Shown piece after piece: positions 2,325 to 20,326 of a stretch of 42,427 bases of DNA. Every line of letters begins with the position of its first letter. The first letter of the stretch is position 1. The position numbers were made by a program, and so were the translations under genes. Location of the stretch: positions 1-42,427 of the forward strand of contig JAEEQG010000161.1 in the NCBI GenBank assembly GCA_016285185.1, read 5' to 3'. The notes beneath the pieces are model-generated. The model saw nothing but the letters and a program-made list of their open reading frames with translations, had not been told where the DNA came from and did no database searches. The DNA is from Spirochaetota bacterium (GTDB lineage: Bacteria > Spirochaetota > Spirochaetia > Treponematales > Treponemataceae).

Positions 2325-3128
2325 ATGCAAATTATTCATTCAATAAAATCTGAAATTAGTGAATTGGACGAACTTACAGGTGGATTCTTTCCTGATGAAT
2401 TAACAATTGTGGGGGCTTTTGAGTATGAAGTAGCACAGGCTTTTTTTCTTGCTGCCATTCAAAACATGATTGTAAATCATACTGCGAGAACAGTCATTTT
2501 CCCGGTTTTCATGCCGTATACCTACTTTAAGAATAGTTTAATTACAATGCTTTCCGGGGTTCCGATTGACGAAATTAATAATGGTACAGCAAAAAATACA
2601 GATGTTGTGAAAAAAGCTGAGAAGATGATAGACGATTCAGGTTTGATAATTGGGGATATCTTTGAAACACCTCAAATTGATGATTTTTGTGATAAATTAA
2701 GGCAGCTTGTGTATGAAAATGAACAAGAGCAAACTATTATATTTATTGAAAGATTATGGCATCTTGAAATTGATAAAAGACCTCTTTATGAAATATTAAC
2801 GGAATTAACAATGAAATTAAAAGCACTGGCACAAGAATTAAGTGTTCCCATTGTTTGTATACTTCCTCTTAATTTTTCAAGTGTATATCCAGAGAAGAAC
2901 ATGAGGATATTGAGAAAAAATTATGGCTCTTCAATAGAAGATAATGCGGATGTTGTGATTGTGACTTACAAGGATAAGAACCAAAAGGATGATAACGACA
3001 TATTGAATCGTGAACTGATTGTTGCAAAAAATAGAGACGAAAAAACTGGCAGGTGTCCTTTTTCATTTTCATGTAACTGGCTTCAACCTTCGAGCCAGGT
3101 ATTGTATCGTCCGCACCCAGAGTGGTAA
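2325..3128 (+). CDS. DnaB-like RecA-fold protein without a Walker A lysine
   Basis: This 267-residue protein aligns by eye with the C-terminal ATPase domain of replicative helicase DnaB. TGGFFPDELTIVGA corresponds to the DnaB segment leading into Walker A; IIFIERL to the Walker B strand; GSSIEDNADVVIVTYKD to the conserved SGxIEQDAD segment; and ELIVAKNRDEKTG to EVIVAKNRxGPTG. The P-loop itself is lost: where DnaB has a GKT/S, this protein reads VGAFEYEVAQAF (about residues 27-38). ATP hydrolysis in the normal way is therefore unlikely. There is no N-terminal DnaG-binding domain. A Shine-Dalgarno AAGGAG (2312-2317) precedes the ATG by 7 bases. It stands alone between repeat arrays and the restriction-modification genes. 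It could be a regulator or a decoy derived from phage or plasmid replication genes; the role is unknown. Confidence 0.6.
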   Translation: MQIIHSIKSEISELDELTGGFFPDELTIVGAFEYEVAQAFFLAAIQNMIVNHTARTVIFPVFMPYTYFKNSLITMLSGVPIDEINNGTAKNTDVVKKAEKMIDDSGLIIGDIFETPQIDDFCDKLRQLVYENEQEQTIIFIERLWHLEIDKRPLYEILTELTMKLKALAQELSVPIVCILPLNFSSVYPEKNMRILRKNYGSSIEDNADVVIVTYKDKNQKDDNDILNRELIVAKNRDEKTGRCPFSFSCNWLQPSSQVLYRPHPEW

Positions 3129-3296: not shown

Positions 3297-5921
3297 ATGC
3301 AGCAACAATTCAAATCTATTTATTTCCCATCAAGCAATAACTCTAATGCTGGAAAGAGTATTACGATTTCATTTTCAGATAAAGAAACTAATTTATATTC
3401 TATTTTTACAAAGAAAACTAATAATGAATTAAGAACTTTAGTAGGAGATACATATTTAGAAAATCTTCAAAAAAATGCTGAAAAAGAAAATAGAAATTTA
3501 AGCCAATATATAAAAAATCAATTACTTAAAAATTTAAAAAAATCAATATCTGGAGATGTGACCTTTAAAAGTAGTAAAAAGCAACCTTTACAACGTTGGT
3601 TTAACTATGCTGAGGGTTTTTCTATGGATTTTGTTAAAAGTATTATAGAAAAATATTTTGGTGATGCAAATAATATATATGAGCCATTTGCCGGGACAGG
3701 TACAACTATTTTTGCTTGTAATTCCCTAATGAAAGATTGTTGCTATTCAGAAGTAAATCCACTTATGTTTTTTCAGATTCAAACAAAAATAGATTTACTT
3801 AGATTGAAAGATAAAAACATTTTTTCATCTCAAATTGATTATTTCTTAAAAGAATTAGATAAAATGTATTCAGATGCAAAAATGGATGAAAAATTGAAAT
3901 TAAGCTATCACAAAACATTTGAGAATAGCATATATTTTTCTGAAATATCATTTGAATTTATTTTAAAAATGAAAACTATCATAAGGAATATAGAAACTGC
4001 AAATAAACTTCTAGCAGACACTCTTTCTATGGCAATTATTTCTATACTTTTACAAATTTCTATGCTAAAAAAATCTGGAGATGTTCGTTTTAAAACAAAA
4101 AGAGAATTAGAAAATGATAATGTAATTCCAATGGAAATATTCAAAAAACAATTGGAAATAATTAAAAATGATATTTTATTGTATGGTGAAGATTTTCATA
4201 TTAACTCTTTTCCAATATTGTTTAATTCAAAGAAAATTAGATTTACAAATGATTTTTATTTTGATGGCATTATAACAAGTCCTCCATATTTAAACGGTAC
4301 AAATTATATCCGAAATACAAAAATTGAACTTTGGTTTATGGAGTATATCAAAAACAAAGATGATTTAAGATTTTTTAGAAATGAAATTATTACAAGTGGA
4401 ATTAATGATGTAATTGTTACAACTGATGATGAAAAAAGAATTATTGGCGGAATCTCTAATCTTCTGGATAAAACAATAAAAGAATTGAAACAAAATGCAT
4501 ATGATTTGCGGATACCTTTAATGGCAGAACAATACTTTTCCGATATGTATGTGACTTTTGAAGGAATAAAAAAACATTTGAAAGAAGGATCGCATGTTGC
4601 AATAGATATTGGAGATTCCATATTTGGAGGAATTCATATACCTACAGATTTGATACTAATCGAAATATTAGAAACGCTTAGTTTTAAATTCATCGAATCA
4701 ATAAATTTAAGAGAAAGACGTTCTCGCTCTGGAAAAATAATAAAACAAGTTTTATTAATATTTGAAAATTTAAATGAATTCAAAAATGAAGAAAAAACAA
4801 AAACTTTTTGGTTTAATAAGTGGAATCAATTTAAAGACAATATTCCATACCAACAATTACCATTTTCAAAAAGAAATTGGGGCAATAAAATACATTCACT
4901 ATGTTCTTATCAGGGAAAACTAAAACCCTCAATTGCTCATTTTCTTGTTGATACATTTATACCTAAAAAGGGAACAATGCTTGATTTATTTTCTGGAGTC
5001 GGAACAATACCATTTGAAGCTCGATTGGACAATAAAAAAGCATATGGGTTTGATATTAGTTTGCCTGCTTATTATATTTCATCTGCAAAGATGGGAATAA
5101 TAAATGTTGATAAAATGTATCAAAAATTACAATGTTTAAAAGAGTATATAATCTCAAATGTCATTACAGAAGATTTACAAAATAAATATGATAACTTTGG
5201 TTTCAATGGACACATAAAAGATTATTATGAAGAAAATACTTACAAAGAAATATTATTGGCAAGGAATTATTTCCTATTAAATTCTCCAAAAGAAACAGAA
5301 GATTTTTTTATTATTTCTGCATTACTGCATATCTTACATGGAAATCGTCCTTATGCATTGAGTCGACATTCTCATCCTATTGTACCCTATGCGCCAACAG
5401 GAGATTTTATTTATAAAAATCTTATGGAGCATCTTTATGACAAAATAAATAAAGATATATCTGATTGTTCCAGTAATATAGAAGGTGAAATTTTTCTTCA
5501 AGATTCAACAAAGTTTTGGCCAACAAAAATAAATAATATTGATGCAATAATAACATCTCCACCATTTTTTGATAGTACAAGATTTTATTCCGCAAATTGG
5601 ATTAGACTTTGGTTTTGTGGTTGGGAAAATATTGATTTTAATAATAATCCAAAGGAATTTATAGATGAGAGACAAAAAAAGACTTTTTCTGTTTATGAAC
5701 CAATATTTTTACAAGCTAGAGAGAGATTAAAGAAAGATGGTGTATTTGTTCTTCATCTTGGAAAAAGTAAAAAATGTGATATGGCAGAAGAATTAATAAG
5801 AATTTCAAGAAAATGGTTCAAAAAATATGATTTGTTTACAGAGGATGTAACACATTGTGAAAAATTCGGAATAAAAGATTTAGGAACCGTTGAAAAACAT
5901 CAATTCCTAATTCTAAATTAA
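3297..5921 (+). CDS. Tandem-domain DNA methyltransferase (N4-cytosine/N6-adenine type)
   Basis: The 874-residue protein has two amino-methyltransferase domains in a row. Domain 1 shows RWFNYAEGFS, then the AdoMet-binding YEPFAGTGTT (about residue 130) and catalytic ITSPPYLNGTNY (about 328). Domain 2 shows the parallel CSYQGKLKPSIAHFLV, then DLFSGVGTIPFEA (about 563) and ITSPPFFDSTRF (about 754). In family terms SPPY/F marks exocyclic-amine methylation. Two domains in one chain usually mean an asymmetric site methylated on both strands. The first 80 residues are an extra segment; residues around GDTYLENLQKNAEKEN followed by LSQYIKNQLLKNL look like a strand-helix-helix (ribbon-helix-helix) motif. 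It runs convergently into the HNH endonuclease with a 9-base overlap. Base composition is strikingly AT-rich against the core genes, which suggests transfer. Confidence 0.88.
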   Translation: MQQQFKSIYFPSSNNSNAGKSITISFSDKETNLYSIFTKKTNNELRTLVGDTYLENLQKNAEKENRNLSQYIKNQLLKNLKKSISGDVTFKSSKKQPLQRWFNYAEGFSMDFVKSIIEKYFGDANNIYEPFAGTGTTIFACNSLMKDCCYSEVNPLMFFQIQTKIDLLRLKDKNIFSSQIDYFLKELDKMYSDAKMDEKLKLSYHKTFENSIYFSEISFEFILKMKTIIRNIETANKLLADTLSMAIISILLQISMLKKSGDVRFKTKRELENDNVIPMEIFKKQLEIIKNDILLYGEDFHINSFPILFNSKKIRFTNDFYFDGIITSPPYLNGTNYIRNTKIELWFMEYIKNKDDLRFFRNEIITSGINDVIVTTDDEKRIIGGISNLLDKTIKELKQNAYDLRIPLMAEQYFSDMYVTFEGIKKHLKEGSHVAIDIGDSIFGGIHIPTDLILIEILETLSFKFIESINLRERRSRSGKIIKQVLLIFENLNEFKNEEKTKTFWFNKWNQFKDNIPYQQLPFSKRNWGNKIHSLCSYQGKLKPSIAHFLVDTFIPKKGTMLDLFSGVGTIPFEARLDNKKAYGFDISLPAYYISSAKMGIINVDKMYQKLQCLKEYIISNVITEDLQNKYDNFGFNGHIKDYYEENTYKEILLARNYFLLNSPKETEDFFIISALLHILHGNRPYALSRHSHPIVPYAPTGDFIYKNLMEHLYDKINKDISDCSSNIEGEIFLQDSTKFWPTKINNIDAIITSPPFFDSTRFYSANWIRLWFCGWENIDFNNNPKEFIDERQKKTFSVYEPIFLQARERLKKDGVFVLHLGKSKKCDMAEELIRISRKWFKKYDLFTEDVTHCEKFGIKDLGTVEKHQFLILN

Positions 5922-6905
5922 ACCTAACTTTTTTTTGTTTGCATCTGATAATTTATCAACAAGGTCATATTCAATTATAATTTTTCTAATTTCAGATACA
6001 CGTTTATCAAGATTAGAGTTTTCTCTTACAGATAAATAATTATCAACGCCGGCATTTACATTATCAACTGTAATTTTCTGGTTAATAATAGGTTCTTTAC
6101 TTGATAGTAATTGTAAATCTGCTCCAGTTATATTTGCAAGTTCAATCAATTCATTATTGGTATAAAATTCAGAAGGCCATCGATCTCTTTTATTCAAATT
6201 AGCTTCGCTACTTAATAAGGCTGCATTTTCTTTTGTTAAAGGATATAGATACTTAGAGGGAAGAATATGATCTATTGCCCATGAATCTCTATCTTCAATA
6301 TCTAAATGCTTCTTTGTTTTAAAACATTTAGAATCAAATCGTTCAAATAGTTCTTTAATAAATAAATCATCTTTTATTAAGTTTTCTTTTTGAACAAATA
6401 AATCTGCAATTCTTCTTCGAATTGATGATTCACGTAATTGTTCTTTTGTCCGTTCGGGGTTAAGAGATGCATTTATAACACCTTTACAGGCTCTGCATTC
6501 CATTTGACGCTCTAATGGTCCAAAATTGCTATGCTTACTAAAAGCTGAAAAGGGTAATATTTTCCCACAACAGTTGCATTGTTTCCAATATGCTTCTTTA
6601 TTTTCTGTATAAATTCTAAAAAAAGCTTGCCAAAATCTCTGCACAGGTAACGAGCCCTTTTTTTTACTTTCTGTAGGCCAATTAGAATAAGAAAGAGAAT
6701 TATTTTTTGAATGTTCAAATCCACAATTATTACATACCCATTTTTGAGTTTCATATGCAACTTGTGGATCTAAAAGTTTTTGTCCAATATTTATTGTATT
6801 TAAGCTATTGCATTGAACACAGATAAAACCAACATACACATCATTAGGTTGTATACCTTCTATCCTGCTTATATTTGTTTGATTTTTTGTTTTTCTTCTA
6901 GGCAT
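5913..6905 (-). CDS. Zinc-finger HNH endonuclease, probable restriction enzyme
   Basis: This 330-residue protein has two pairs of CxxC half-sites: C29/C32 with C58/C61, and C109/C112 with C136/C139, so two zinc-binding modules are likely. Around residues 210-240, WAIDHILPSKYLYP followed by SSEANLNKRDRWPSEF gives the DH...N...N pattern of a beta-beta-alpha-metal (HNH) nuclease. Its 3' end overlaps the 3' end of the tandem methyltransferase by 9 bases, tail to tail, a common arrangement for type II restriction and modification genes. From this I infer it is the partner restriction enzyme. No clear Shine-Dalgarno precedes the ATG; TATAGT and TATAAC boxes lie 25-40 bases upstream. It could also be a homing-type HNH nuclease, but the partner gene makes restriction more likely. 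Confidence 0.75.
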   Translation of the reverse strand: MPRRKTKNQTNISRIEGIQPNDVYVGFICVQCNSLNTINIGQKLLDPQVAYETQKWVCNNCGFEHSKNNSLSYSNWPTESKKKGSLPVQRFWQAFFRIYTENKEAYWKQCNCCGKILPFSAFSKHSNFGPLERQMECRACKGVINASLNPERTKEQLRESSIRRRIADLFVQKENLIKDDLFIKELFERFDSKCFKTKKHLDIEDRDSWAIDHILPSKYLYPLTKENAALLSSEANLNKRDRWPSEFYTNNELIELANITGADLQLLSSKEPIINQKITVDNVNAGVDNYLSVRENSNLDKRVSEIRKIIIEYDLVDKLSDANKKKLGLI

Positions 6906-7142: not shown

Positions 7143-8060
7143 TCAAATAGTAATATTTGGCATTGGTAAATTATTACCTTTAGAATCCTTTAGCATAATA
7201 TCAATAGTACTTTCTGTCTTTTTTTTACCTGCTGCTACTGAGCTTAAAAAATATTGAAGAGCATAATTGCTTACTTCAAATGAGTGAAGAATTTTAGCAG
7301 ATAGAATAAATAATTCATTAAATTTGTTTCTATTCATTTCTTTTGCTGCAACATTTATTTCATTTGATAAATACAACAAAAGCATGCTATTATATTTTAA
7401 TTTATATTTGGAAGAATCCCTTGAAAGAAAATTTCCATTGATTACTCTTTTGCTATTTAATTCTGTATTCGTTTCAAATTTCTCTGGTACAACTTGCAAG
7501 TCAAATCCTATGTTTTTCCTTTCAATATTTTCTTGATCTAACTTAATCCACGCATTGAGAATAGATTCATATTTTTTCTTTATTTCTGATTTTCCGATAT
7601 CAAGTATATAGGATCTTATTATTGGCTTTGTGAACTTTGCTATATATACTTCATCAGAACTTTTAATATTACAATTTGAATTAAATGTTATTATTACTTT
7701 TTTTAATTTATCTTTTGCCATTAAACTTGGTATAAACTCTGTTGTATATATTTCCAATATATTTTCTTTTTTATCAATTAGGCATATAAGTATGGGATAA
7801 TTATGAGAAAGCAACCATTTGCAACTATCATTTTCATAAATGATATCATCTTTTTTGCTTTTAATTTGCACTAGGTAGTAGTTTTCAATAAATAACAATG
7901 GACCTTTTCGTGTTCCAAGTGAACAATACAAATCGATCCCTGAGTCTTCCTGATGTGGAACCAAGAATGATGTACCAAATGCTGAAAAAAAGTATTGTGC
8001 TAGGTATTCTGATCGACTACCTTCATGAAAGTTAGCTGCTATGCTACCTGTATTATTCAT
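7143..8060 (-). CDS. DUF4365-like PD-(D/E)XK nuclease-fold protein
   Basis: The N-terminal half of this 305-residue protein resembles DUF4365: an early acidic helix (SEYLAQYFFSAFG), then HQEDSGIDLYCSL and, after a hairpin, YYLVQIKSKKD. The D and the Q-x-K/E-x-K spacing fit a PD-(D/E)XK nuclease core at about residues 40-75. KWLLSHNYPILICLIDKK and IYTTEF continue the fold as in DUF4365 proteins. The C-terminal half (from about residue 150) is unrecognised and helical. The start is supported by TAGGA seven to eight bases before the ATG. It lies in the same AT-rich block as the methyltransferase and HNH gene, on the same strand as the latter, separated by 237 bases in which I see no gene. It may be an accessory defence nuclease; this is inference from family and context. 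Confidence 0.6.
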   Translation of the reverse strand: MNNTGSIAANFHEGSRSEYLAQYFFSAFGTSFLVPHQEDSGIDLYCSLGTRKGPLLFIENYYLVQIKSKKDDIIYENDSCKWLLSHNYPILICLIDKKENILEIYTTEFIPSLMAKDKLKKVIITFNSNCNIKSSDEVYIAKFTKPIIRSYILDIGKSEIKKKYESILNAWIKLDQENIERKNIGFDLQVVPEKFETNTELNSKRVINGNFLSRDSSKYKLKYNSMLLLYLSNEINVAAKEMNRNKFNELFILSAKILHSFEVSNYALQYFLSSVAAGKKKTESTIDIMLKDSKGNNLPMPNITI

Positions 8061-8103: not shown

Positions 8104-8319
8104 TCACTGATTCGTGGCAATATATTCATCAATTTCCCTTACCATTTCTGGCTTTGTCATGCTGTCAAAAACATCAGGGCAGTCTGCGATATAAATTAAA
8201 ATTTCGTATTTTTCATCGAGTTGTAAAAACGGCAAAGATGTAATATTATGCTCGTGTTTGTAATCTTCTATTGCGAGGTACATAAGAAAAATTGAATTAT
8301 TCAATCTTAAATCAGACAT
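8104..8319 (-). CDS. Small DUF3791-like protein
   Basis: The 71-residue product reads MSDLRLNNSIFLMYLAIEDY at its start, continues through a helical middle (FLQLDEKYEILIYIADCPDVF) and ends MVREIDEYIATNQ. This matches the plan of the DUF3791 family (short protein, EIYxxxHNLS-like helix, YI(Y/L)DCYxxLH, terminal DIDEYI). I chose the ATG at 8319 because an excellent AGGGAGGT lies 7 bases upstream; an in-frame extension to 8391 would start inside its promoter. DUF3791 genes often sit beside putative toxin genes of the DUF3990 type; here no intact partner is present, though a gene relic follows on the same strand upstream. Function unknown. Confidence 0.65.
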   Translation of the reverse strand: MSDLRLNNSIFLMYLAIEDYKHEHNITSLPFLQLDEKYEILIYIADCPDVFDSMTKPEMVREIDEYIATNQ

Positions 8320-8347
8320 AGTAAAACCTCCCTTCAAATATGTAGTT

Positions 8348-8376
8348 ATTATAACATAAGTAATTTGAATCCACAA
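8348..8376 (-). promoter_or_regulatory. Promoter of the DUF3791-like gene
   Basis: Minus strand: -35 TTGTGG (8376-8371), 17-base spacer, perfect -10 TATAAT (8353-8348), 29 bases before the start codon and just ahead of the strong Shine-Dalgarno. Confidence 0.7.
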
Positions 8377-8391
8377 TAAAGTTAATCCCAC

Positions 8392-8476: not shown

Positions 8477-8687
8477 TTATTTGCGCTTTTCATACACCGT
8501 TTTCTTTCCGGGAACATAACAGTCATAATACTCTATCGTGCCGCCATTTCCCCAACACATCCTCATTCAAAAGAAAATCCTTGAGCGAAATTACATACAC
8601 TCCGTCATCATTATAATAGGCTTTTGCAGATTCACGCGTGATGACTACCCTTGTGAACGAACCCAAATTTTGCAAGAGACAAGATTT
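8477..8687 (-). pseudogene. C-terminal relic of an unrecognised gene with one frameshift
   Basis: Read on the minus strand, one frame gives FTRVVITRESAKAYYNDDG followed by VYVISLKDFLLNEDVLG. At about 8550 the sense shifts to another frame that gives GNGGTIEYYDCYVPGKKTVY and ends EKRK-stop at 8477. The two halves read naturally as one protein tail separated by a one-base-type frameshift. No start codon or ribosome site is left. It may be the lost partner of the DUF3791-like gene, but nothing in the sequence identifies it. Confidence 0.45.
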
Positions 8688-8752
8688 TTACTCCAAATTT
8701 TTGCGTAAATACGCATTTTTCTGGAGTAAACTGAGCATAAAAGTCACTTGTC
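8678..8752. repeat. Nested inverted repeat (about 75 bases)
   Basis: Outer arms GACAAG (8678-8683) and CTTGTC (8747-8752), middle arms TTTACTCCA (8687-8695) and TGGAGTAAA (8722-8730), inner arms GCGTA (8703-8707) and TACGC (8710-8714) with an AA loop. The middle and inner stems share an exact centre at 8708.5. This could fold into a cruciform or RNA hairpin; it lies between the gene relic and the WYL promoter. Confidence 0.7.
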
Positions 8753-8774
8753 AATAGCTGTTATTCAAAACAAC

Positions 8775-8803
8775 TTGAAATATTAAACCTGCGGGCATAT
8801 CAT
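8775..8803 (+). promoter_or_regulatory. Promoter of the WYL-AAA+ cluster
   Basis: -35 TTGAAA (8775-8780), exactly 17 bases, -10 TATCAT (8798-8803). The start codon follows at 8837 with GGGG (8826-8829) as a modest ribosome site. The long inverted repeat ends 23 bases before the -35. Confidence 0.6.
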
Positions 8804-8836
8804 AGAAATGCGGTTTATCCAAAGCAGGGGTAAGTT

Positions 8837-10054
8837 ATGATACACGAAAACATAAACAGTTTTGAGCTTGAGTATCTCAAAGAAGAAGCTGAAGAAGGAT
8901 ACAGATTATATGCCAAAAGATACAGGCGTGAACATGACAAAATGCCGTCAGAAAAAGAAAAAAACGCATTCATAAAGAAGTATATTAAAGAGCATACCAT
9001 TAAGACTGATTCCTCAATGCGGCAGATAGACAAAGAAAAAGGGCAGGTGGAATTACTTAAAAAAATAATTATCCGCGATAAAAAGAAGTTATCAATTCAA
9101 GAAATGTCGGAAATCCTGATTAACGAAGGATATACAAAAGGCTCCAGCGTAAAGACAATCTACAGGCGGATTCTGCCGGAGATTACAAAATTTGGAAATA
9201 TAAAAAAAGGAGCTGACGGCAGGTATTATTTTGATGAGAACAACAGCAGGCTGAGAAATTATAAAGAAATTACTGCAGACATTGCAGAAAAAGTTAGTCT
9301 CAGTATAACGAGTATAAACATAATCTCCAGCTTTTTAGAGACAATAAAAGATTCTCCTGTTTATGAGCAGGCAAAGAATTTTATTGAATCTGAAAAAGTG
9401 CAGTTTACACGTGGACGCAGAGAAAAAGTAAAAAATCAGAACAGCTCTTCAAGGCTTTTATTTCTTGGAGCGCCGGAATCAACAATTAGTACAAGAATTT
9501 GGGAAACAATCTATGATGCAATGGACAAAAATTCCGCAATCGACATTCATTATACTGCAGAAGGAAGGGTCAAAGAAGAAACATATACCGTATACCCGTA
9601 TCAGCTGATTTTTGATAATGGCAGCTGGGATTTATGGGGAGAATGTCTTACTGCGGGGCATAAAGGTAAAAGGCTTTTTAATCTGTCAAGAATTTCACAT
9701 GTTGCAACACGAGCAATGATAAAAACATTTGAGCTGCCGGACGATTATGACTTTTTAACAACCATGTCAGGCAGCTTTGGCTGTTACAATGACGGAAAAC
9801 AAAAGGTATATAAAATAAAGTTTCAAAAAGATTCGTATGCATGGACATATTCCAAAGATCGTATTTGGGGTGACAATCAGAAAATTGAAGAAGCGGAAGA
9901 CGGCTATATCCTTAGTTTTGAGGCTTCTCAATTTAAACCTGTATTGCGCTGGGTTTTAGGATGGGGGGACGAAGCAGAACCAGTGGAACCTGTTGAACTT
10001 GTAGACGAATGGAAGAAAAAAATTAAAAAAATAGCAAAAAAATTCAAAATTTAA
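8837..10054 (+). CDS. WYL-domain transcriptional regulator
   Basis: The 405-residue protein has a helical, charged N-terminal region (residues 1-60), a likely winged-helix part around LSIQEMSEILINEGYTKG (about 85-130), and a WYL domain at about 225-300. The WYL core is visible as TVYPYQLIFDNGSWDLWGE with the following KGKRLFNLSRISHV. The C-terminal part (QFKPVLRWVLGWGDEAEPVEP) fits the WCX extension. WYL proteins of this type sense nucleic acid or nucleotide ligands and very often control phage-defence operons. It is the first gene of a six-gene same-strand cluster and has its own promoter, so it probably regulates that cluster. Specific ligand and operator are unknown. Confidence 0.8.
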   Translation: MIHENINSFELEYLKEEAEEGYRLYAKRYRREHDKMPSEKEKNAFIKKYIKEHTIKTDSSMRQIDKEKGQVELLKKIIIRDKKKLSIQEMSEILINEGYTKGSSVKTIYRRILPEITKFGNIKKGADGRYYFDENNSRLRNYKEITADIAEKVSLSITSINIISSFLETIKDSPVYEQAKNFIESEKVQFTRGRREKVKNQNSSSRLLFLGAPESTISTRIWETIYDAMDKNSAIDIHYTAEGRVKEETYTVYPYQLIFDNGSWDLWGECLTAGHKGKRLFNLSRISHVATRAMIKTFELPDDYDFLTTMSGSFGCYNDGKQKVYKIKFQKDSYAWTYSKDRIWGDNQKIEEAEDGYILSFEASQFKPVLRWVLGWGDEAEPVEPVELVDEWKKKIKKIAKKFKI

Positions 10055-10071
10055 TCAAAAACCCTCTTTTT

Positions 10072-10086
10072 TCTCATTTTTTGAGA
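10072..10086. other. TCTCA/TGAGA inverted repeat between WYL and AAA+ genes
   Basis: TCTCA (10072-10076) and TGAGA (10082-10086) flank five T residues, 18 bases after the WYL stop and 43 before the AAA+ start. A similar TCTCATT-A-AATGAGA lies at 2273-2287. It could be a weak terminator or a protein-binding site. Confidence 0.35.
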
Positions 10087-10128
10087 ATGCATTGTTTTAT
10101 ATTTTCCTCGTTAACTAAGGAGGAAAAT

Positions 10129-12471
10129 ATGACAAACACTATCAGAAGAAAACGTGCAAGCGCATTACGCAGGGCTAAAAGGAATTCAGGCCCTGTAACA
10201 GCAGAAACAAAAGCAGAAGCTTATGCATTTTGTTTTTATCTTTATAACATTTTTTATGAAATACCAAATTACCGTGTTTTAAACCGTTATGATGATTTCC
10301 TTTTTGATTTTGTTGAGTATTGCAGGGAAACAGGTAAAGAGGAACGTCTTGATGCAGTTTTAAATAATGAAATTAAAAAGCTTGAGAAGGAAGGGCTTCT
10401 TGTTCCATTCAAGACGGACGTTCCTGATGAGATGATTTTTACGAATTCTAAAATCAAATATCGTTATGAAGAGGACAAAGAAGTAGACAGGAAGATTAAT
10501 AATGACAATCTTGTAACGGAAAACGTTGTAAATCTATACAGGATTCTGAATATAGAAAAAGAACCTGTTTTTTCTTCAATCATAAATACGGTTGTTTTTG
10601 ATGAAACAGATTTGCATGTTCTTCATAATGACATCAAGATGACAAAGAAAATAAGGAACACAGTTTATGATATTTCAAAAACCATGTTTCTTGTAGATCA
10701 GATAGGGCTTTCTAAGGAAGAAGCAAGATATATCCTTTTCGAAAACCGTATGAATACATTTCATAGATTCACGAGTATAATTGAGGATGAATTTCACGAA
10801 AAGAAAGAAAAAGAAAAATGCATCGCGAATATTGTTGGTATTTCACATAATGAATTCAGACAGATGCTCCGCCCTGACAATAAAATCAGAGCATTCGGTT
10901 TTATTGATGAAGACGGGGATTACGATTCATCATTAGATAATTGCATTATCGAAAAATCAATTTATCCGTATTTTGCAGATTTGATTAAACCTCTTGATTG
11001 CAGCGCCGCATACGGTCTGGATTCTTTTTCTGTAAAAAGAGAATCAATAGACATTACGGTTGATTTGCTCAAAGGTAAAAATCCTGTTTCCATTCTGTTT
11101 TACGGCAAGCCCGGTACGGGTAAAACAGAACTTGCAAAGGCAATCAGCAAACAAACGGGGAATAAAGTTTATATATTTAAGAATGAATCTGAAGTTGATC
11201 AAGATAAGAATCTTCTCGGTCGTCTTGTCTGTCTGCTTTCAATGGATTGGACGGATTCAGTTTTGATTGTTGATGAGGCTGATTCTTTGCTTAAAACGAT
11301 TGAAAGAAGTTTCTTTGGAACTTTTCCTGCACAGACAAAAGGCACTGTCAATAAGATGCTCGAGAACAACAGGAACAAGGTTATCTACATCATTAACCAC
11401 CAGAGACAGATTGATGAATCCACCCGCCGCCGGTTCACGTTCAGCATTAAGTTTGAATCAATGCCTGCTTCAACACTCCGCTCAATTGCGGAATCAAAGC
11501 TTGCGCCAATGGCAATTGAACAGGATGTTAAAAACAACCTGTTAGCTATGCTCGGCAAATATCACCTTACGGGAGCAAGCGTGGATAACCTTGTTAAGAC
11601 AATACAAGGCATGGAATGTTCCAATAACGATGAGCTTCTCAAAAAGGCGGAAATCGTGATGAAAGAAAATGCGCTTCTTTTGGACGGAAAATCAAAAATG
11701 AGGGAAACCGTAAAAGCCGAGTACAATCCAAAAGTTTTGAATGCATCAATGGATCCGCTCAAAATTGTTGAGATGATACAGAACGCCGCAAAATTTGCTG
11801 AAAAGAATAAAGACTCCGAGAACGGAATAAGAATGCTGTTTTACGGACTCAGCGGAACCGGCAAAACGGAGCTTGCCCGATACATTTCAGAACAACTCGG
11901 CAAGCCCATTATCCTTAAGCGCGCAAGCGATATTTTAAGTCCATATGTTGGGCGAGATGAACAGAATATCTGCGATGCTTTTGCCGAAGCAGAAACCTCT
12001 GATTCAATACTCTTGTTTGATGAAGCCGACACTTTCTTCTACAACCGGAATCAGGCGCAAAGAACTTGGGAACGCTCTCTTGTAAACGAATTTCTTACCC
12101 AGATGGAAGAGTTTTCCGGTATCCTGATCTGTACGACAAACCTGCGCAATGTAATGGATCCTGCTATGCAGCGCCGTTTTCACATGATGGTTGAGTTCAA
12201 GCCTATGAAGTTTGACGGTATCAAAATTATGGCGGAACGGTATTTTCCTGCTTATCATCTTTCCAACAGTCAGATTGAAAGCCTTGAAGATATGGAAAGT
12301 GTAACTCCTGGTGATTTTGGTGCGCTTTCAAGCCGCATCCGGTTTATGAATCCCGATGATGTTGATTCGGATTACATTCTTGAAGAGCTCAAAAAGCTTC
12401 AGGAAGAAAAGAAAAAACAGTGGAAAGCCGAAAGCGGCGAAAGTGAACACAAAATTGGATTTACAGCATAG
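10129..12471 (+). CDS. Double AAA+ ATPase
   Basis: The start is fixed by a consensus AAGGAGG six bases before ATG 10129, giving 780 residues. Residues 1-320 are a helical N-terminal region of unknown family. AAA+ domain 1 has Walker A GKPGTGKTE (about 325), Walker B VLIVDEADSLL and an arginine pair in STRRRF. AAA+ domain 2 has Walker A GLSGTGKTE (about 573), a pore-loop-like SPYVGRDEQNI, Walker B ILLFDEADTFF, sensor CTTNL and AMQRRF. Both Walker motifs are intact in both domains, so two active rings are possible. Family knowledge suggests a hexameric remodelling or unfolding motor. It is the largest gene in the WYL cluster, with the next gene 12 bases downstream. Its substrate is not evident. 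Confidence 0.85.
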   Translation: MTNTIRRKRASALRRAKRNSGPVTAETKAEAYAFCFYLYNIFYEIPNYRVLNRYDDFLFDFVEYCRETGKEERLDAVLNNEIKKLEKEGLLVPFKTDVPDEMIFTNSKIKYRYEEDKEVDRKINNDNLVTENVVNLYRILNIEKEPVFSSIINTVVFDETDLHVLHNDIKMTKKIRNTVYDISKTMFLVDQIGLSKEEARYILFENRMNTFHRFTSIIEDEFHEKKEKEKCIANIVGISHNEFRQMLRPDNKIRAFGFIDEDGDYDSSLDNCIIEKSIYPYFADLIKPLDCSAAYGLDSFSVKRESIDITVDLLKGKNPVSILFYGKPGTGKTELAKAISKQTGNKVYIFKNESEVDQDKNLLGRLVCLLSMDWTDSVLIVDEADSLLKTIERSFFGTFPAQTKGTVNKMLENNRNKVIYIINHQRQIDESTRRRFTFSIKFESMPASTLRSIAESKLAPMAIEQDVKNNLLAMLGKYHLTGASVDNLVKTIQGMECSNNDELLKKAEIVMKENALLLDGKSKMRETVKAEYNPKVLNASMDPLKIVEMIQNAAKFAEKNKDSENGIRMLFYGLSGTGKTELARYISEQLGKPIILKRASDILSPYVGRDEQNICDAFAEAETSDSILLFDEADTFFYNRNQAQRTWERSLVNEFLTQMEEFSGILICTTNLRNVMDPAMQRRFHMMVEFKPMKFDGIKIMAERYFPAYHLSNSQIESLEDMESVTPGDFGALSSRIRFMNPDDVDSDYILEELKKLQEEKKKQWKAESGESEHKIGFTA

Positions 12472-12483
12472 GAGGAGGATTTT

Positions 12484-13338
12484 ATGAGTCTTATGGCATT
12501 GGGTGTAAAAATCAACGCACTTCAAAAAGGTATAAAGGAAGGACGGTTCACAACAAAAGCACAGGTTAAAGAAGCTGCAAAAGAACTCCGTGTTGCATCC
12601 GCAATTGGATATGGAAACCTTTCTCCCGAAGATAATGAACGCTGGTATGAGCAGCTTGCCGTGAATCTTTTTGAAAACCACAACAACTGGATTCCCTGCT
12701 TTATTGATATTGGCTTTGGCAGGGAACTGATTGATCATTCGGCAAATGTACAGAATAACACAATTCCTAAAAAGCAGCAGTGGAAGATTATCGTAACAAG
12801 AGACAAATTCCCGGAATGGCAGTTCTGTGCAATTGTAGCAACTTTTTGCAGGGAAGAAGCTGTTCTGTATCTGAAAAAATACTTCTCTGATTATGGTGAT
12901 TTGGGCTTTAACTATCACGAACCTTCTGAAATAAAACAAAGAGTGCCGTGGGTAGAAGTATCGACTAAGAAAACCGGTTCATACAAGGAACAAAAGGTTA
13001 AATATGACTTGGCTGTTCCATGTTCACCTAAGAGTGCAGGGGGAAAATATCCTATGTGGATAACAATTCCGTATTTGCAGAAAGAGCATCCGCCTGCTCA
13101 TGCTCATCTGTATACGGCGGATTTAAAATTCATAACCAAATTTGAAATAACGGAGAATCCTCCGGTAGATATGTCGGATTTAAAGGTTCTGCCTAATTGT
13201 AAAAAGCTTCCGCAGAGATATTGTGAGCTACTTATTGAGTGGGCAAAAGATACTCAAAATGGTGTTAGCAATTGGGAAAAACTAAAATCCAACTGGCAGG
13301 ATTTTATGGATGCCGCTCAATCCGGCTTGTTTGAATGA
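12484..13338 (+). CDS. Unknown protein with DUF4160-like C-terminal region
   Basis: This 284-residue protein starts 12 bases after the AAA+ gene with GGAGGAGG before the ATG, so the two are co-expressed. Residues 1-60 are a basic helical segment containing FTTKAQVKEAAKELRVASAI. The middle (WKIIVTRDKFPEWQFCAIVA) is an unrecognised alpha/beta region. From about residue 190, ITIPYLQKEHPPAHAHLY resembles the EHxPPHxHV start of DUF4160, a small fold often seen in toxin-antitoxin and conflict contexts. It ends in a helix with WEKLKSNWQDF. The tight coupling suggests a partner or adaptor of the AAA+ protein. The DUF4160 resemblance is by eye only. Confidence 0.6.
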   Translation: MSLMALGVKINALQKGIKEGRFTTKAQVKEAAKELRVASAIGYGNLSPEDNERWYEQLAVNLFENHNNWIPCFIDIGFGRELIDHSANVQNNTIPKKQQWKIIVTRDKFPEWQFCAIVATFCREEAVLYLKKYFSDYGDLGFNYHEPSEIKQRVPWVEVSTKKTGSYKEQKVKYDLAVPCSPKSAGGKYPMWITIPYLQKEHPPAHAHLYTADLKFITKFEITENPPVDMSDLKVLPNCKKLPQRYCELLIEWAKDTQNGVSNWEKLKSNWQDFMDAAQSGLFE

Positions 13339-13422
13339 GTTATTTGGAAAATCAGGTGATTGCTTTTGCGACACCTTAAATATCAGCTGTATTTAGAAAA
13401 CTTTGATAAAAGGAGAAATGCA

Positions 13423-13611
13423 ATGCCACACGCAAAAAACTTACCGTGTCAGTTATGTCCGAGCTGCGCAAACTATGAGTATCATGCTCATACCAGTGCG
13501 CCTCATCGTTGCAAAGATTCCGGCAGTTTTACCAACAGCAGTAAATGCGGTCAGGATCCGAACAAAGATGGTACATCTTCAAACAACTGCAAGAAGTATG
13601 AACCGGCTTAA
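13423..13611 (+). CDS. 62-residue cysteine-rich protein
   Basis: The ATG at 13423 has AGGAG (13411-13415) upstream; the longer in-frame ORF would start inside the spacer after the previous gene. The product is small and has six cysteines: CQLCPSC near the start, then single cysteines in HRCKD, SKCGQ and NNCKKY. Histidines (HAHTSAPHRC) add further ligands. This looks like a small metal-binding or redox peptide. It keeps the strand and spacing of the cluster (84 bases after the previous gene, 70 before the next) and has no hydrophobic signal. I do not recognise the family. Confidence 0.65.
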   Translation: MPHAKNLPCQLCPSCANYEYHAHTSAPHRCKDSGSFTNSSKCGQDPNKDGTSSNNCKKYEPA

Positions 13612-13632
13612 TAAGTTCAACTGATTAAAACT

Positions 13633-13659
13633 CGGCAGAAAACCGGCCACCTTCTGCCG
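13633..13659 (+). terminator. Hairpin inside the WYL cluster, possible attenuator
   Basis: CGGCAGAA (13633-13640) and TTCTGCCG (13652-13659) form a perfect 8-bp stem with an 11-base loop. Only TTTCAG follows, so termination would be partial. It separates the first four genes from the last two and could set their expression ratio. Confidence 0.5.
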
Positions 13660-13681
13660 TTTCAGTTAGGGAGAAATAATC

Positions 13682-14620
13682 ATGGGAAAAAAATACGAAA
13701 TAACACTAAAAGATATCAATAAGGAAATTGAATTATTACTCACTAAGCTTAATCTTTTGATAGAGGCTTGTACCAATTCTGGCAATAATATAGAAGATTT
13801 ATATTCAGAATTAACAGAACAAATAAAACAATATAAAAAACACATTTCTGAATATCAACTTCAGGATCTTCCTTTTGTTGAAGAAATGGATAATGGCAAT
13901 CCAATTTCATTTGCGGGTAAAGAAAATGCTGAAGCAGAAGAAAATTCAAAATTAGTAAAACTCTGTGCCGAAAGGGCAATTGATGCTATTTATGCAATTA
14001 GAAATTGCGATGCCTGTACTGAAAAAGAAGCAAAAAGAGAAGAGTTATATTGGCTTCTTCACCGATTAAGATTTCCACTCCAATTCAAGATATATGCATT
14101 ATCAACTCTCGATTCTTATTTACCATATTCACTGGGGTTCCGTCTTAATAGAGAAATTAAAAATTGGCAGTTAAAAAATGCATATAGAAGTTTGATAAAG
14201 GAAAACAACTGGAAATACCTCGGACATGCAGAGACTTTTAAAGAAGCCTATCATTATGCAGAAAATAATGGATTCTCTTGGGGCGGAGTTATTCACCTTT
14301 GCGCAGAACCAGAAGATGAATACACAAATAGTTTTGTAAAAATCGAAACTCCTTTCTTTACCGAATATTTTGATTCCTATGCAAAAGGTCCGATAGGGCA
14401 TAGATTCAATTATCGAAAAACAGAAATAACTTGCCTTTTCTGTAAAAAGGTATTCACATATCAAGGACATTCATGCGATCCAATTGTCAACAGAAGCAAT
14501 GATATTTATTTTCAGTATGCACGGTGCTGTAAGAAATGCTATAGAAAATATGTAAAACCGGCAAAGAAAGATGAGAACCTTGCTCAGAAAATCCGTACAG
14601 ATTTCAAGCTGGATATTTAG
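13682..14620 (+). CDS. Unknown protein with C-terminal zinc-ribbon cysteines
   Basis: The 312-residue product begins with a coiled-coil-like helical region (residues 1-60, KEIELLLTKLNLLIEACTN). A helical middle follows, with CDACTEKEAKREELYWLLHR at about 113-132. The C-terminal part has ITCLFCKKVF (about 257) and CCKKCYRKYVKP (about 290), which together would give a four-cysteine zinc ribbon. A Shine-Dalgarno AGGGAGAAA lies before the ATG. It follows the 70-base spacer containing the hairpin and is separated from the next gene by only 16 bases. No catalytic motif is visible. A DNA- or RNA-binding role is possible from the zinc ribbon alone, but this is speculative. Confidence 0.6.
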   Translation: MGKKYEITLKDINKEIELLLTKLNLLIEACTNSGNNIEDLYSELTEQIKQYKKHISEYQLQDLPFVEEMDNGNPISFAGKENAEAEENSKLVKLCAERAIDAIYAIRNCDACTEKEAKREELYWLLHRLRFPLQFKIYALSTLDSYLPYSLGFRLNREIKNWQLKNAYRSLIKENNWKYLGHAETFKEAYHYAENNGFSWGGVIHLCAEPEDEYTNSFVKIETPFFTEYFDSYAKGPIGHRFNYRKTEITCLFCKKVFTYQGHSCDPIVNRSNDIYFQYARCCKKCYRKYVKPAKKDENLAQKIRTDFKLDI

Positions 14621-14636
14621 TTATAGGAGACTCTGT

Positions 14637-15584
14637 ATGAAAGATTTAAACATTCCATTAGAAAAACTGATTGCATCCAAAGACATTATTGCGCAATTCA
14701 AAAAAGAGAAACGTGTCTTTACACCATTTGAGCAGGCTGTTTTGATTTATCAGAATCCGAAACTTACGCATGAAGAAATGCTGAATCTCCTGAAGCAGAT
14801 TCAAGACGCTGTAAAAGATGAAGAAGAATACAAGGAACTGTATCAGCAACTTGAAGAACGTATCAAATTCCAGGTTGAACTTGAAAAAAGGTTCTATTCT
14901 GGCGAAGAAAACCAGTATTTCAATTTTTCATATAAAGATGCGGAGAATATGGAAATTGTGAACGACGACAGTTTCTTTTCTGATTTGCACAAGCTTTTAG
15001 ACTACATTGATGATTATTTCAAAAGATATGGAATTAAAGCGGTTCAATCTGCCGTCAATGGCAAATTCACTGTACATAAACATTATCTTAACAGCAATGA
15101 TATTGAAATTACTGCTGTTTTTGATGGTCAGAATAAAATAAAAAAAATCTATTCTTACAGTTTAGATACCCTGATTGATTATACTAAGCCTGATAACTTT
15201 GCAAATGCATTTGTGGAAATACCTTTCCCGTTCAGAAACGGTGATTTTGTTCATGTTATAGGTAATCCGCAAATTGGTATTTTTACCAGCTGCAAAGATG
15301 AAGAAGATTATCGGTATTTACAATTGCTTCATAAAAGAATTACGGAAAAGGGGCTTAATATTGATGCTTCTGATATCAGTTGCAGGGTTGAACTGCTTGC
15401 CCAAGCTGATAATTCCGAACGGTTGTACTTTTATCATTACCATCCAAGCTTGCTTTCTTTGGAATATGCAGAATTGAAAGAATCGGACGAACATTATGAA
15501 CTGCTTAAAAGTGCGCAAGCCCTCATGCAGGGCAAAGGTTCTCTGGAAACCTTTTGTGGTTATTTGAATGTAGGAAATAAGTAA
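14637..15584 (+). CDS. Unknown 315-residue protein, last gene of the WYL cluster
   Basis: I chose ATG 14637 because ATAGGAGA lies just upstream; a longer ORF would overlap the previous gene. The N-terminal third is helical and strongly charged (residues 1-85, FTPFEQAVLIYQNPKLTHEE then LLKQIQDAVKDEEEYKEL), consistent with a coiled coil. The rest appears alpha/beta, with IEITAVFDGQNKIKKIYSYS and FVEIPFPFRNGDFVHVIGN. No signal peptide, membrane segment or cysteine cluster is seen. The family is not recognised. Its stop is followed by degenerate 33-base repeats and a long inverted repeat that mark the end of the accessory block. Confidence 0.6.
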   Translation: MKDLNIPLEKLIASKDIIAQFKKEKRVFTPFEQAVLIYQNPKLTHEEMLNLLKQIQDAVKDEEEYKELYQQLEERIKFQVELEKRFYSGEENQYFNFSYKDAENMEIVNDDSFFSDLHKLLDYIDDYFKRYGIKAVQSAVNGKFTVHKHYLNSNDIEITAVFDGQNKIKKIYSYSLDTLIDYTKPDNFANAFVEIPFPFRNGDFVHVIGNPQIGIFTSCKDEEDYRYLQLLHKRITEKGLNIDASDISCRVELLAQADNSERLYFYHYHPSLLSLEYAELKESDEHYELLKSAQALMQGKGSLETFCGYLNVGNK

Positions 15585-15648
15585 AGGAGTATGATTTGAT
15601 GTGTATCAGGCGTATAAGAAAATGAAAAACAGCTTTATAGGGTTGTAT

Positions 15649-15704
15649 TACACTTTTTATTCGCACTTTTTAGGCTTACACCACACTTTTTATTCGCACT
15701 TTTT
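15649..15704. repeat. Two 33-base repeats with CACTTTTTATTCGCACTTTTT
   Basis: CACTTTTTATTCGCACTTTT occurs from 15651 and again from 15684, a 33-base period. A third diverged copy (GCACTTTTTATTTGCGCTTT) lies at 8470-8489, at the other end of the WYL cluster. There it forms the end of the gene relic. Confidence 0.65.
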
Positions 15705-15716
15705 TATTTGTCAGTT

Positions 15717-15758
15717 TTTTATGTAATTTGTATACTCGACTACCCAAATTACATAAAA
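15717..15758. terminator. 14-bp perfect inverted repeat between the accessory block and polA
   Basis: TTTTATGTAATTTG (15717-15730) pairs perfectly with CAAATTACATAAAA (15745-15758) around a 14-base loop. The arms are AT-rich with short T and A runs at the outside, so it may terminate from both sides. It lies 56 bases before polA. Confidence 0.5.
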
Positions 15759-15814
15759 ATGTTCCTCATACCAAAAATTGGGTTTTTGTGTTATGATAAT
15801 AAAAAAGAGGTTTT

Positions 15815-18586
15815 ATGAAAGATTCTGACAAAACACTGTACGTGCTTGATTCGTACGGGTTGATTTACCGTGCTTACTATGCTTTTATCAGCCGTCCGCT
15901 GGTCAATATAAAAGGCGAGAACGTTTCCGCCGTTTTCGGGTTTTTCCGCAATTTTCTAAAGATACTAAAAGACTATAAACCCGCTTATGCCGTTGCGGCT
16001 TTGGACTCCCGAACACCCACGTTCCGGCACAAACTGTTTGACGAATACAAGGCAACCCGCCAAAAAACACCGGAAGACCTTCATGCGCAGATTCCCGTTA
16101 TAGAAGAAATACTTACCGCTCTTGGAATTCCTATTCTCCGGTGCGACGGCTACGAGGCGGATGACATAATCGCGACTCTTGCCCGTGAGTGTGAGCAGAA
16201 CGGAATGCGGTGCTGCATTCTTTCCGGTGACAAAGACTTGATGCAGCTTGTTAACGGCAGTATTTCAATATTAAAGCCCAACCATTCAGGCGGCTGGACA
16301 GCCGTTGACGAAAAAGGCGTTATGGAAGAGTGGGGCGTGCAGCCGTCGCAGATGCAGGACATGCTCTCGCTTTTGGGCGACACCGCGGACAATATTCCCG
16401 GCGTAAAGGGAATCGGCGAAAAAACGGCGCAAAAGCTTCTTACCGAATACGGAACGCTTGCAAATATTTATGAGAATGTGGAATCAATTGCGGGTTCTGT
16501 AGGCAAAAAGCTTGTAGAAGGCAAAGAATCCGCATTTTTTTCAAAAAAACTTGTGGAACTGTGCACGGATGTTCCCGTCTCGCTGGAACTTTCCAATTAT
16601 TCAGTGGCTTCACTCGATTTTGCTTCCGCGGCGCGCCATCTTTTTAATGCTGGCGTTCCTGTAGTTGCCAAATCCTATGCCGAATTCGGGGCTGTTGCCG
16701 AAGTTCAGGCAGGTGCGGCAAGCGTTGCCGCCGAAGAAGACGGGGAACCTGTTTTTGACTCGCTTGTTCAGAATACCGGTGATTATCGCGCTGTAACAGA
16801 CATAAACGAACTTGAAACAATTATTGACCAGGCGCTTGCCGCAGGTTTTGCGGCTTTTGACTGCGAAAGCAACAGCCTTAACCCGCATGAAGCACGCCTT
16901 GCAGGCTTTTCAATTTCAATGCAGAAAGGCAAAGCCGTTTACATTCCGCTTGTTACGGCGGAAAGCGGAACTCTCGGTTCCGTTTCGTACATCAGTGCGG
17001 AAGCCGCTCTCGGCGAGCTTGCAAGAATGTTCGGGCGTGCTGAGATGACCGTAATCACACACAACGGCAAGTATGATTACGAGGTACTGCGCGCAAACGG
17101 TCTTAAAGAACTGAAATGCCGCTTTGTTGATACGATGGTGGCGGCATGGCTGTTGAATCCTGAGCGTGCGTCGTTCTCACTTGAGGCCTTGAGCGAAACT
17201 CAGCTCGGGCTCAAGACAATTCCTTTTACGGATTTGGTTCCCAAAAAAGAAAAGGAAATGACGTTCTTTGACGTTCCGCTTGAAAAAGCTGTTCCCTATG
17301 CCGCCGAGGACGCGGATTTGACGTTGCAGTTGTGGCAGCTTTTTGAGCCCAAGTTAAAGGAAAAAGGACTTCTGCCGCTTTTTGAACAGACTGAAATGCC
17401 TGTAATGCCGGTTCTTGCGGAAATGGAAATTGCCGGAATCCGCCTTGATACACAGAACCTTGCCGCGTACGGAAAAGAACTTGCCGCTCAGATTGAGGAT
17501 GCCGAAAAGAGTATATTCAGTCTTGTAGGACATGAGTTTAACATTGCTTCAACAAAGCAGCTTCAGGATGTGCTTTTTGAAGAACGAAAGCTTAGTCCCG
17601 TAAAAAAGACAAAAACCGGCTTTTCAACTGATACCGCCGTTTTGGAAGAACTTGCCCGTGTTGATGAAGTTCCCAAAAGAATACTTGATTACCGTACGCT
17701 CACAAAGCTACAGTCCACCTATGTGGAAGCAATCCCAAAGCTTGTTTCGTCCGACGGCCGCGTGCGCACAAGCTTTATTCAGACCGGAACGGCAACGGGC
17801 CGCCTCTCGAGCCGGGATCCCAACCTGCAGAACATTCCTGTGCGTGAAGAAGCCGGACGCAAAATCCGTTCCGCGTTTACGGCGTGTGAAGGCTGCAATC
17901 TTGTTTCCGCGGACTATTCGCAGATTGAGCTTGTCATACTGGCACATCTTTCCGGCGACGAAAACCTTAAAAAAGCCTTTTTGAGCGGAGTAGACGTTCA
18001 CAAGGCTACCGCCTGCCTCATATTCGGGGTGGACGCAGAAGCCGTAACACCCGATATGCGCAGAACCGCAAAAACAATCAACTTTGGTGTTATGTACGGA
18101 ATGAGCGCGTTCCGGCTTGCCAACGAGCTCGGAATTTCCAACACACAGGCTAAATCATTCATAGATTCGTACTTTGCAACATACTCCGGGGTACAGTCCT
18201 TTATTCATAGTACTGTGGAACATGCGGAAGAAAAAGGTTTTGTTGAAACAATATTCGGTCGCCGCCGGTACATTCAGAATATCAATTCAAAAAACAAGAT
18301 AGAAAAATCCGCGGCGGAGCGGGTTGCCGTAAACACACCTATACAGGGTTCGGCGGCGGATATTGTCAAAAAGGCTATGATTGCCGTTGATGGTGCTTTA
18401 AAAAAAGAAAACCTGCATGGGCGAATGCTTCTGCAGGTTCATGACGAGCTTATTCTGGAATGTCCCGAAACTGAAACCGAAAAAGTCTCAGCACTCGTAA
18501 AAAGAGAAATGGAACAGGTTGTTGCCCTGTCCGTTCCTCTCAAAGTCAGTGTTGAAAGCGGTAAAAACTGGGGACTGTTCCACTAA
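15815..18586 (+). CDS. polA: DNA polymerase I
   Basis: The 923-residue enzyme, normal length for the family, fills gaps and removes RNA primers in replication and repair. Three domains are visible. The 5' nuclease (about 1-290) has LYVLDSYGLIYRAYYAF and YEADDIIATLA. The 3'-5' exonuclease (about 325-520) has all key acidic motifs: FDCESNSL, HNGKYDYEVL and YAAEDADLTL, so proofreading is probably active. The polymerase domain has motif A SADYSQIELVILAHLSGD, motif B RRTAKTINFGVMYG and motif C QVHDELILE. The ATG follows AAGAGG. It converges on gltX, with stop codons overlapping by 4 bases. Confidence 0.98.
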   Translation: MKDSDKTLYVLDSYGLIYRAYYAFISRPLVNIKGENVSAVFGFFRNFLKILKDYKPAYAVAALDSRTPTFRHKLFDEYKATRQKTPEDLHAQIPVIEEILTALGIPILRCDGYEADDIIATLARECEQNGMRCCILSGDKDLMQLVNGSISILKPNHSGGWTAVDEKGVMEEWGVQPSQMQDMLSLLGDTADNIPGVKGIGEKTAQKLLTEYGTLANIYENVESIAGSVGKKLVEGKESAFFSKKLVELCTDVPVSLELSNYSVASLDFASAARHLFNAGVPVVAKSYAEFGAVAEVQAGAASVAAEEDGEPVFDSLVQNTGDYRAVTDINELETIIDQALAAGFAAFDCESNSLNPHEARLAGFSISMQKGKAVYIPLVTAESGTLGSVSYISAEAALGELARMFGRAEMTVITHNGKYDYEVLRANGLKELKCRFVDTMVAAWLLNPERASFSLEALSETQLGLKTIPFTDLVPKKEKEMTFFDVPLEKAVPYAAEDADLTLQLWQLFEPKLKEKGLLPLFEQTEMPVMPVLAEMEIAGIRLDTQNLAAYGKELAAQIEDAEKSIFSLVGHEFNIASTKQLQDVLFEERKLSPVKKTKTGFSTDTAVLEELARVDEVPKRILDYRTLTKLQSTYVEAIPKLVSSDGRVRTSFIQTGTATGRLSSRDPNLQNIPVREEAGRKIRSAFTACEGCNLVSADYSQIELVILAHLSGDENLKKAFLSGVDVHKATACLIFGVDAEAVTPDMRRTAKTINFGVMYGMSAFRLANELGISNTQAKSFIDSYFATYSGVQSFIHSTVEHAEEKGFVETIFGRRRYIQNINSKNKIEKSAAERVAVNTPIQGSAADIVKKAMIAVDGALKKENLHGRMLLQVHDELILECPETETEKVSALVKREMEQVVALSVPLKVSVESGKNWGLFH

Positions 18587-20172: not shown

Positions 20173-20213
20173 ATTATTCCTCTTCAAGTATTTGTCATCG
20201 ATAAATTATGAGG

Positions 20214-20242
20214 ATTATAATGCTTTTACAGGATTTTGGGAA
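20214..20242 (-). promoter_or_regulatory. Candidate promoter of gltX
   Basis: Minus strand: a perfect -10 TATAAT (20219-20214) with a weak -35 TTCCCA (20242-20237) at 17 bases, about 40 bases upstream of the gltX start. Confidence 0.4.
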
Positions 20243-20276
20243 CACCCGTATCCGGCGCAGATATGTACGCAAAAAA

Positions 20277-20306
20277 AAAGACTTTCCGCAAAGGAAAGTC
20301 TTTTTT
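20277..20306 (-). terminator. Bidirectional-looking terminator after the SNF-type transporter
   Basis: AAAGACTTTCC (20277-20287) and GGAAAGTCTTT (20293-20303) form a strong stem with loop GCAAA. A-run on the left and T-run on the right allow termination in both directions. In the minus direction it ends the transporter transcript 20 bases past its stop. Confidence 0.85.
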
Positions 20307-20326
20307 ATGCTCAAAGCAAAGTCAGC

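Follow-up and report, generated by a model that had tools for sequence, protein, structure and literature searches.

Six genes lie on one strand before polA in a Treponemataceae genome, and they raise the question of whether they form a system and, if so, what that system does. In this study, we analysed the 42,427-nucleotide stretch of DNA that carries them (the window), which is one contig of a 2.77-Mb Treponemataceae assembly with an estimated contamination of 8.15%. The initial annotation had placed six same-strand open reading frames here, 12-84 bases apart, and all six are present at those positions on the plus strand (Table 1). The gaps in the order WYL, AAA2, P3, P4, P5 and P6 are 74, 12, 84, 70 and 16 bases. 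A Pfam scan of the six proteins found WYL and WCX domains in the first and two AAA domains in AAA2, which agrees with the proposed two-ring ATPase of 780 residues counted from the ATG. The small Cys-rich protein was also as described (P4, 62 aa, six Cys). The DUF4160-like tail ascribed to P3 has a match, but a sub-threshold one (E 0.009). P4, P5 and P6 gave no Pfam match, P3 and P5 gave none against PDB sequences, and none of the small proteins of the unit is named by PADLOC, NCBIfam or PHROGs. The structure prediction for P6, made from three sequences, was uninformative (pLDDT 44). The WYL gene had been credited with its own promoter; a TTGAAA-17-TATCAT site does exist upstream at 8775-8803, but shuffles of the region yield such sites at least as often. 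The cluster hints at an undescribed defence system.

Table 1. Features of the accessory unit and of the DnaB_C-like gene in the window.
Feature	Position	Strand	Basis
Accessory unit, six genes and leader region	8760-15601	+	Cleanly absent from G007
WYL + WCX domain regulator, 405 aa	8837-10054	+	Pfam WYL E 5e-11, WCX E 7e-9
AAA2, double-ring classical AAA+ ATPase, 780 aa from ATG	10129-12471	+	Pfam AAA x2, AlphaFold, Cdc48/p97/NVL-like fold
AAA2 C-terminal I-G-F codons, residues 776-778, disordered tail	12454-12462	+	[ILVM]G[FLY] in 124/138
P3, ~170-residue N-terminal domain and DUF4160-like tail	12484-13338	+	Homology to L081, L035-L037
P4, 62 aa, 6 Cys, Cys-rich	13423-13611	+	Homologues in L078, L035-L037
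P5, mosaic protein, C-terminal zinc-ribbon-like Cys motif	13682-14620	+	Homologues in L078, L034, L038, L081
P6, recurrent C-terminal domain ~185-310	14637-15584	+	In 18/274 family genomes
DnaB_C-like protein, Walker A lost, outside removable block	2325-3128	+	Pfam DnaB_C E 1.7e-25; alignment

The cluster was compared with the corresponding site in a relative, G007, whose PolA protein is 99% identical to that of the window. The G007 contig (L072) aligns to window positions 8546-8765 (95%) and 15602-20521 (96%), and the block between them is missing; the block edges, 8759/15602, were taken from a gapped alignment of the two sequences. Because the block is cleanly absent from G007, the six genes form one accessory unit. 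A chimeric contig is a residual possibility as the source of the block, though both flanks share the same identity (~96%). Terminal repeats were rejected as an explanation of the clean insertion, since the block edges share no repeat longer than 6 bases. Translations read by eye suggest that the polA-side site is occupied by HigBA-like genes in G007, by HicAB-like ones in both G004 and G006, and in G002 by an HsdM-like fragment. The unit thus has the hotspot location and horizontal variability expected of an anti-phage system, as judged by its absence from G007 and by the toxin-antitoxin- and restriction-like genes read by eye in relatives. The six genes are thus a single removable unit, and the site before polA that it occupies is a hotspot of defence and toxin-antitoxin genes. 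This supports the earlier view of a unit in a defence-type setting, and the precise absence from G007 goes beyond what the sequence of the window could show.

The genes upstream of the unit had been regarded as decayed. This did not hold, as the 874-aa methyltransferase-like, 330-aa HNH-like and 305-aa DUF4365-like proteins are all encoded by open reading frames. The first is a double N6/N4 methyltransferase-like protein (3297-5921, plus strand; PADLOC MTase_II, E 4e-64), and the gene of the second (5913-6905, minus strand; Cas9-type HNH match, E ~1e-6) is convergent with it. By their domain matches, these two genes look like an intact restriction-modification pair. The DUF4365 match of the third (7143-8060, minus strand) is sub-threshold (E 0.0017). 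A DUF3791-like protein of 95 aa is encoded at 8104-8391 on the minus strand (PADLOC PDC-M13C, E 9e-9). DUF3990 is the usual partner of DUF3791, and a DUF3990 protein is found on another contig of the same genome (L034 8411-9124).

We then considered AAA2 itself. An AlphaFold model built from 58 sequences (pLDDT 88.5) consists of a helical N-domain (~28-282), D1, D2, a C-terminal helix (747-768) and a disordered tail (pLDDT ~45). In the structure search with the full model, residues 290-770 matched p97, NVL, Rix7 and Cdc48 (Z ~19-20 over ~450 residues), and residues 1-290 were covered by none of the matches listed. The best PDB profile match was the archaeal VAT/VCP-like ATPase. Two Walker A motifs were found in 132 of 138 AAA2 homologues, and an aromatic-hydrophobic-Gly pore loop in D2 was likewise found in 132 of 138. 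With its two AAA modules, their Walker A and B motifs and its Cdc48-like D1-D2 fold, which are marks of classical AAA+ unfoldases, AAA2 looks like a protein unfoldase. The suggestion of a protein quality-control device was half right in this respect. AAA2 shares with Cdc48, p97 and VAT the tandem D1-D2, the substrate-threading pore loop of D2 and a C-terminal tail that possibly docks a protease, as the C-terminus of archaeal Cdc48 does with the 20S proteasome. It differs in being bacterial, in having an N-domain not matched to the Cdc48 N-domain among the matches listed, in carrying an IGF tail instead of HbYX and in having a WYL neighbour. Its score against the CDC48 family TIGR01243 was 75.5 bits, compared with a curated cutoff of 802.65. 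AAA2 is not of a known housekeeping family.

The motif [ILVM]G[FLY] occurs 3-14 residues from the C-terminus, nearly always within 9, in 124 of 138 AAA2 proteins, and this is the only unbiased figure for the tail motif, because the sequences in the structural alignment had been selected for having it. At least four of the 14 proteins lacking the motif are truncated or masked. Ahead of the motif, the linker is variable (~2.7-3.6 bits); within the motif, the G is fixed and the F nearly so. It has been reported that (L/I/V)-G-(F/L) is the tripeptide by which Clp ATPases dock on ClpP (PMC8745299, a study of ClpP binders). The IGF of the window fits this pattern of ClpP-dependent unfoldases, but on a tail. 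Since the tripeptide of Clp ATPases sits in an internal loop and not in a C-terminal tail, docking by the AAA2 tail is an analogy. AAA2 resembles ClpX, ClpA and ClpC in the tripeptide, the pore loop and a ClpP gene adjoining it in four loci, and it differs from them in belonging to another AAA+ family and in having no ClpP gene in the window. These ClpP genes lie 16-63 bases from AAA2 in L201, L227, L228 (Pfam E 1e-66) and L238, all of one Treponema genus, and are extra copies in addition to core ClpP. They are 75-97% identical to each other and ~50% identical to core ClpP1, and they keep the Ser/His/Asp triad. Their lineage has six members in the 274 family genomes, and the four at ≥79% identity to the query are the AAA2-adjacent four.

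Our preferred reading, which we hold tentatively, is that the unit is a WYL-controlled, ATP-driven protein-shredding module whose most likely role would be defence against phages or mobile DNA. The WYL protein would repress or activate the operon on an infection signal. As its fold and pore loop suggest, AAA2 would form a Cdc48-like double ring and thread proteins through the D2 pore. Its flexible C-terminal IGF tail may dock on the hydrophobic pockets of ClpP to give an unfoldase-protease, with the host's own ClpP as the proposed partner here and a dedicated copy in some loci. P3-P6, which are exchanged between loci, might select the prey as adaptors or baits; no domain marking adaptors was identified in them.

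A reading to which we give a smaller but real share of belief is that AAA2 is a protease-free disassembly chaperone like Cdc48 or Rix7, with neighbours that are its clients and an IGF tail that binds another partner or itself. Its best structural matches are disassembly machines, and components of large assemblies (FliM, FliG, FlhA and DnaB) are among its partners. However, the tail matches the ClpP-docking tripeptide, which is its conserved part, the remainder being variable, and dedicated ClpP copies adjoin AAA2.

AAA2 homologues were present in 76 of the 274 family genomes with a patchy distribution, most of them 39-70% identical, and more distant ones occur in Proteobacteria, Fibrobacter and other phyla. 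Phages gave no more than partial matches, the best 31% identical over 55% of the protein, and a single-sequence search of viral contigs confirmed none; the phage relative is encoded in a human gut phage record (MT835507.1, 18115-19380). A WYL gene lay within 1 kb of AAA2 in 25 cases on 168 covered sides (93 loci), and only three lay beyond 3 kb over several hundred side-kilobases. Those at ≤500 bases were upstream on the opposite strand (8), downstream on the same strand (7) or upstream on the same strand (6). The link between WYL and AAA2 has therefore been remade repeatedly. Many AAA2 loci have no WYL gene within reach. On annotated plasmids, WYL adjoins AAA2 in Pantoea, Desulfosarcina, Novosphingobium and Fuscovulum and is one gene away in Rhodoferax; further neighbours there encode SNF2/DEAD helicases, RecB-like nucleases, HEPN, HipA and PDC-M27 A-C. 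On this comparative evidence, the core of the locus is AAA2 plus WYL, and the pairing of a WYL regulator with an AAA+ protein pointed out earlier recurs across phyla, on plasmids beside nuclease and candidate defence genes. The arrangement is akin to WYL-regulated defence loci of the BrxR/CapW type (PMC9122601, PMC4012209), in which a DNA-binding WYL regulator accompanies an accessory defence-type unit, and it differs in that the window unit has no BREX, CBASS or CRISPR genes.

Two further gene associations were seen at AAA2 loci. In L079 (1400-3115) and L202, the gene immediately before AAA2 encodes another AAA+ protein, a shorter one of 559-571 aa. The surroundings of AAA2 also include AddB/AddA-like nuclease-helicase pairs in L087 (13842-19787), L275 (12868-16001), L287 (1276-7129), L124 and L126; the hosts are Treponema and sphingomonads, and one pair is on a plasmid.

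Two known systems were examined as possible homes for AAA2. IetA, the AAA+ ATPase of the anti-phage system IetAS, in which its protease partner is IetS, is the best PADLOC match of the AAA2 AAA domain. IetA is a single-ring protein of ~370-395 aa, and the match covers the AAA domain only. Membership was rejected, as AAA2 scored 117.8 bits against the IetA equivalog NF042959, far below its cutoff of 510, and PADLOC found no IetS match among the six proteins or the scanned neighbours. For the PADLOC candidate PDC-M27, the Rhodoferax plasmid carries AAA2, DUF2779 and WYL followed by PDC-M27 A, B and C, although the PDC-M27 models do not include AAA2. One plasmid gave this strong match, a second gave weaker similarity and the other AAA2 loci had no PDC-M27 genes nearby, and PDC-M27 was rejected as a general AAA2 partner. 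The initial annotation knew of no named system with this gene set, and we likewise found none in PADLOC, NCBIfam, PHROGs or open-licence papers. Open-licence literature on the system, on a C-terminal IGF tail and on decoy paralogs with ClpP yielded nothing relevant.

Some of the genes that accompany AAA2 resemble host machines. Its same-strand neighbours in Treponema include full sigma-70 paralogs, FliM-, FliG_C-, FlhA- and DnaB_C-like proteins, PcfJ and LRR proteins. The AAA2-linked FliM-like copies have E values of 1e-9 to 1e-23, compared with ~1e-86 for core FliM. GK[TS] of Walker A is lost in four of seven DnaB_C-like copies, including the copy in the window, which lies 6.9 kb upstream of AAA2, has relatives near AAA2 in L078 and L202, and probably belongs to the same repertoire as the AAA2 partners. 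Mimics of host proteins were found at 29 of 67 AAA2 loci and in one of 20 control regions (Fisher p 0.001, a value inflated because test loci were the source of the profiles and four of these loci had been picked via P6). Two fusions were observed: an FlhA cytoplasmic domain joined to sigma-70 region 4, in the gene immediately following AAA2 (L094 9865-11196), and a DnaB_C domain joined to a DnaA ATPase domain, in the second gene past AAA2 (L078 11688-12845).

These neighbours bear on another explanation, which we consider somewhat unlikely: stress or regulatory proteolysis with no defence role, in which WYL-controlled AAA2-ClpP would adjust alternative sigma factors and motility. Sigma-70 paralogs adjoin AAA2 in ~10 loci, in three of them together with ClpP, and flagellar paralogs recur at AAA2 loci, as this explanation would have it. 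It fits less well with a locus that is accessory, patchy and swapped, that sits in a hotspot of toxin-antitoxin and restriction genes, and whose plasmid copies lie with candidate defence genes.

The six genes do not travel as a fixed set, as the idea of a six-gene system would require. No other locus examined holds all six, and a fixed six-gene system was rejected; the loci closest to the window unit by homology share only parts of it. L078 shares AAA2 (70%), P4 (80%), P5 (75%) and the C-terminal part of P6 (58%), and L081 shares AAA2 (64%), WYL (48%), the P3 N-terminal domain (66%) and rearranged domains of P5 and P6. The P3 N-terminal domain is also found at 33-37% identity in L035-L037, where a P4 homologue (59%) adjoins P3 without AAA2. 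There, a 218-aa gene lies beside the P3- and P4-like genes; in L078 its relative, of 203 aa and HsdS-like by eye, is the gene immediately before AAA2. The middle domain and the Cys-motif domain of P5 are separate genes in L034, L038 and L081. P6 occurs in 18 of the 274 family genomes; it adjoins AAA2 in L274, and in L268, L269, L270, L276 and L279 it lies next to FliM-like genes or one gene away. A plasmid origin of P3 and a phage origin of P6 were rejected, as P3 had no match in plasmids and P6 none in phages. The comparison of loci shows, at the level of homology, partner genes exchanged between AAA2 loci, and P4, P5 and P6 belong to the same shuffled repertoire as the other partners. That there is no single system, with AAA2-WYL as one unit and P3-P6 as unrelated cargo of the same hotspot, is improbable: P3 and P4 do occur together without AAA2, and most genomes with P6 carry it at a distance from AAA2, but the block comes and goes as a whole, P4, P5 and P6 follow AAA2 in L078 as P3, P5 and P6 domains do in L081, and the module families are rare in control regions.

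Within the preferred reading of a protein-shredding module, a more specific form of immunity can be imagined, which we regard as a long shot. The partners would be copies of host machines that invaders seize, and an invader protein gripping such a bait would be pulled into AAA2 and passed to ClpP. The bait candidates would be DnaB, DnaA, sigma-70, ClpP and flagellar switch proteins, with inactive active sites in some of the copies. P3-P6 would also be baits, but ones that have diverged too far for their host originals to be recognised.

Whether or not the bait idea holds, AAA2-WYL marks a set of accessory loci that spans phyla and has no name in current defence databases. If AAA2 docks ClpP, it would be a widespread bacterial Cdc48-like unfoldase-protease, for which we found no description, with a testable docking tail. 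Its swapped partners would then show how a shredding motor gets re-aimed, and the DnaB, sigma and flagellar mimics would point to the targets of invaders.
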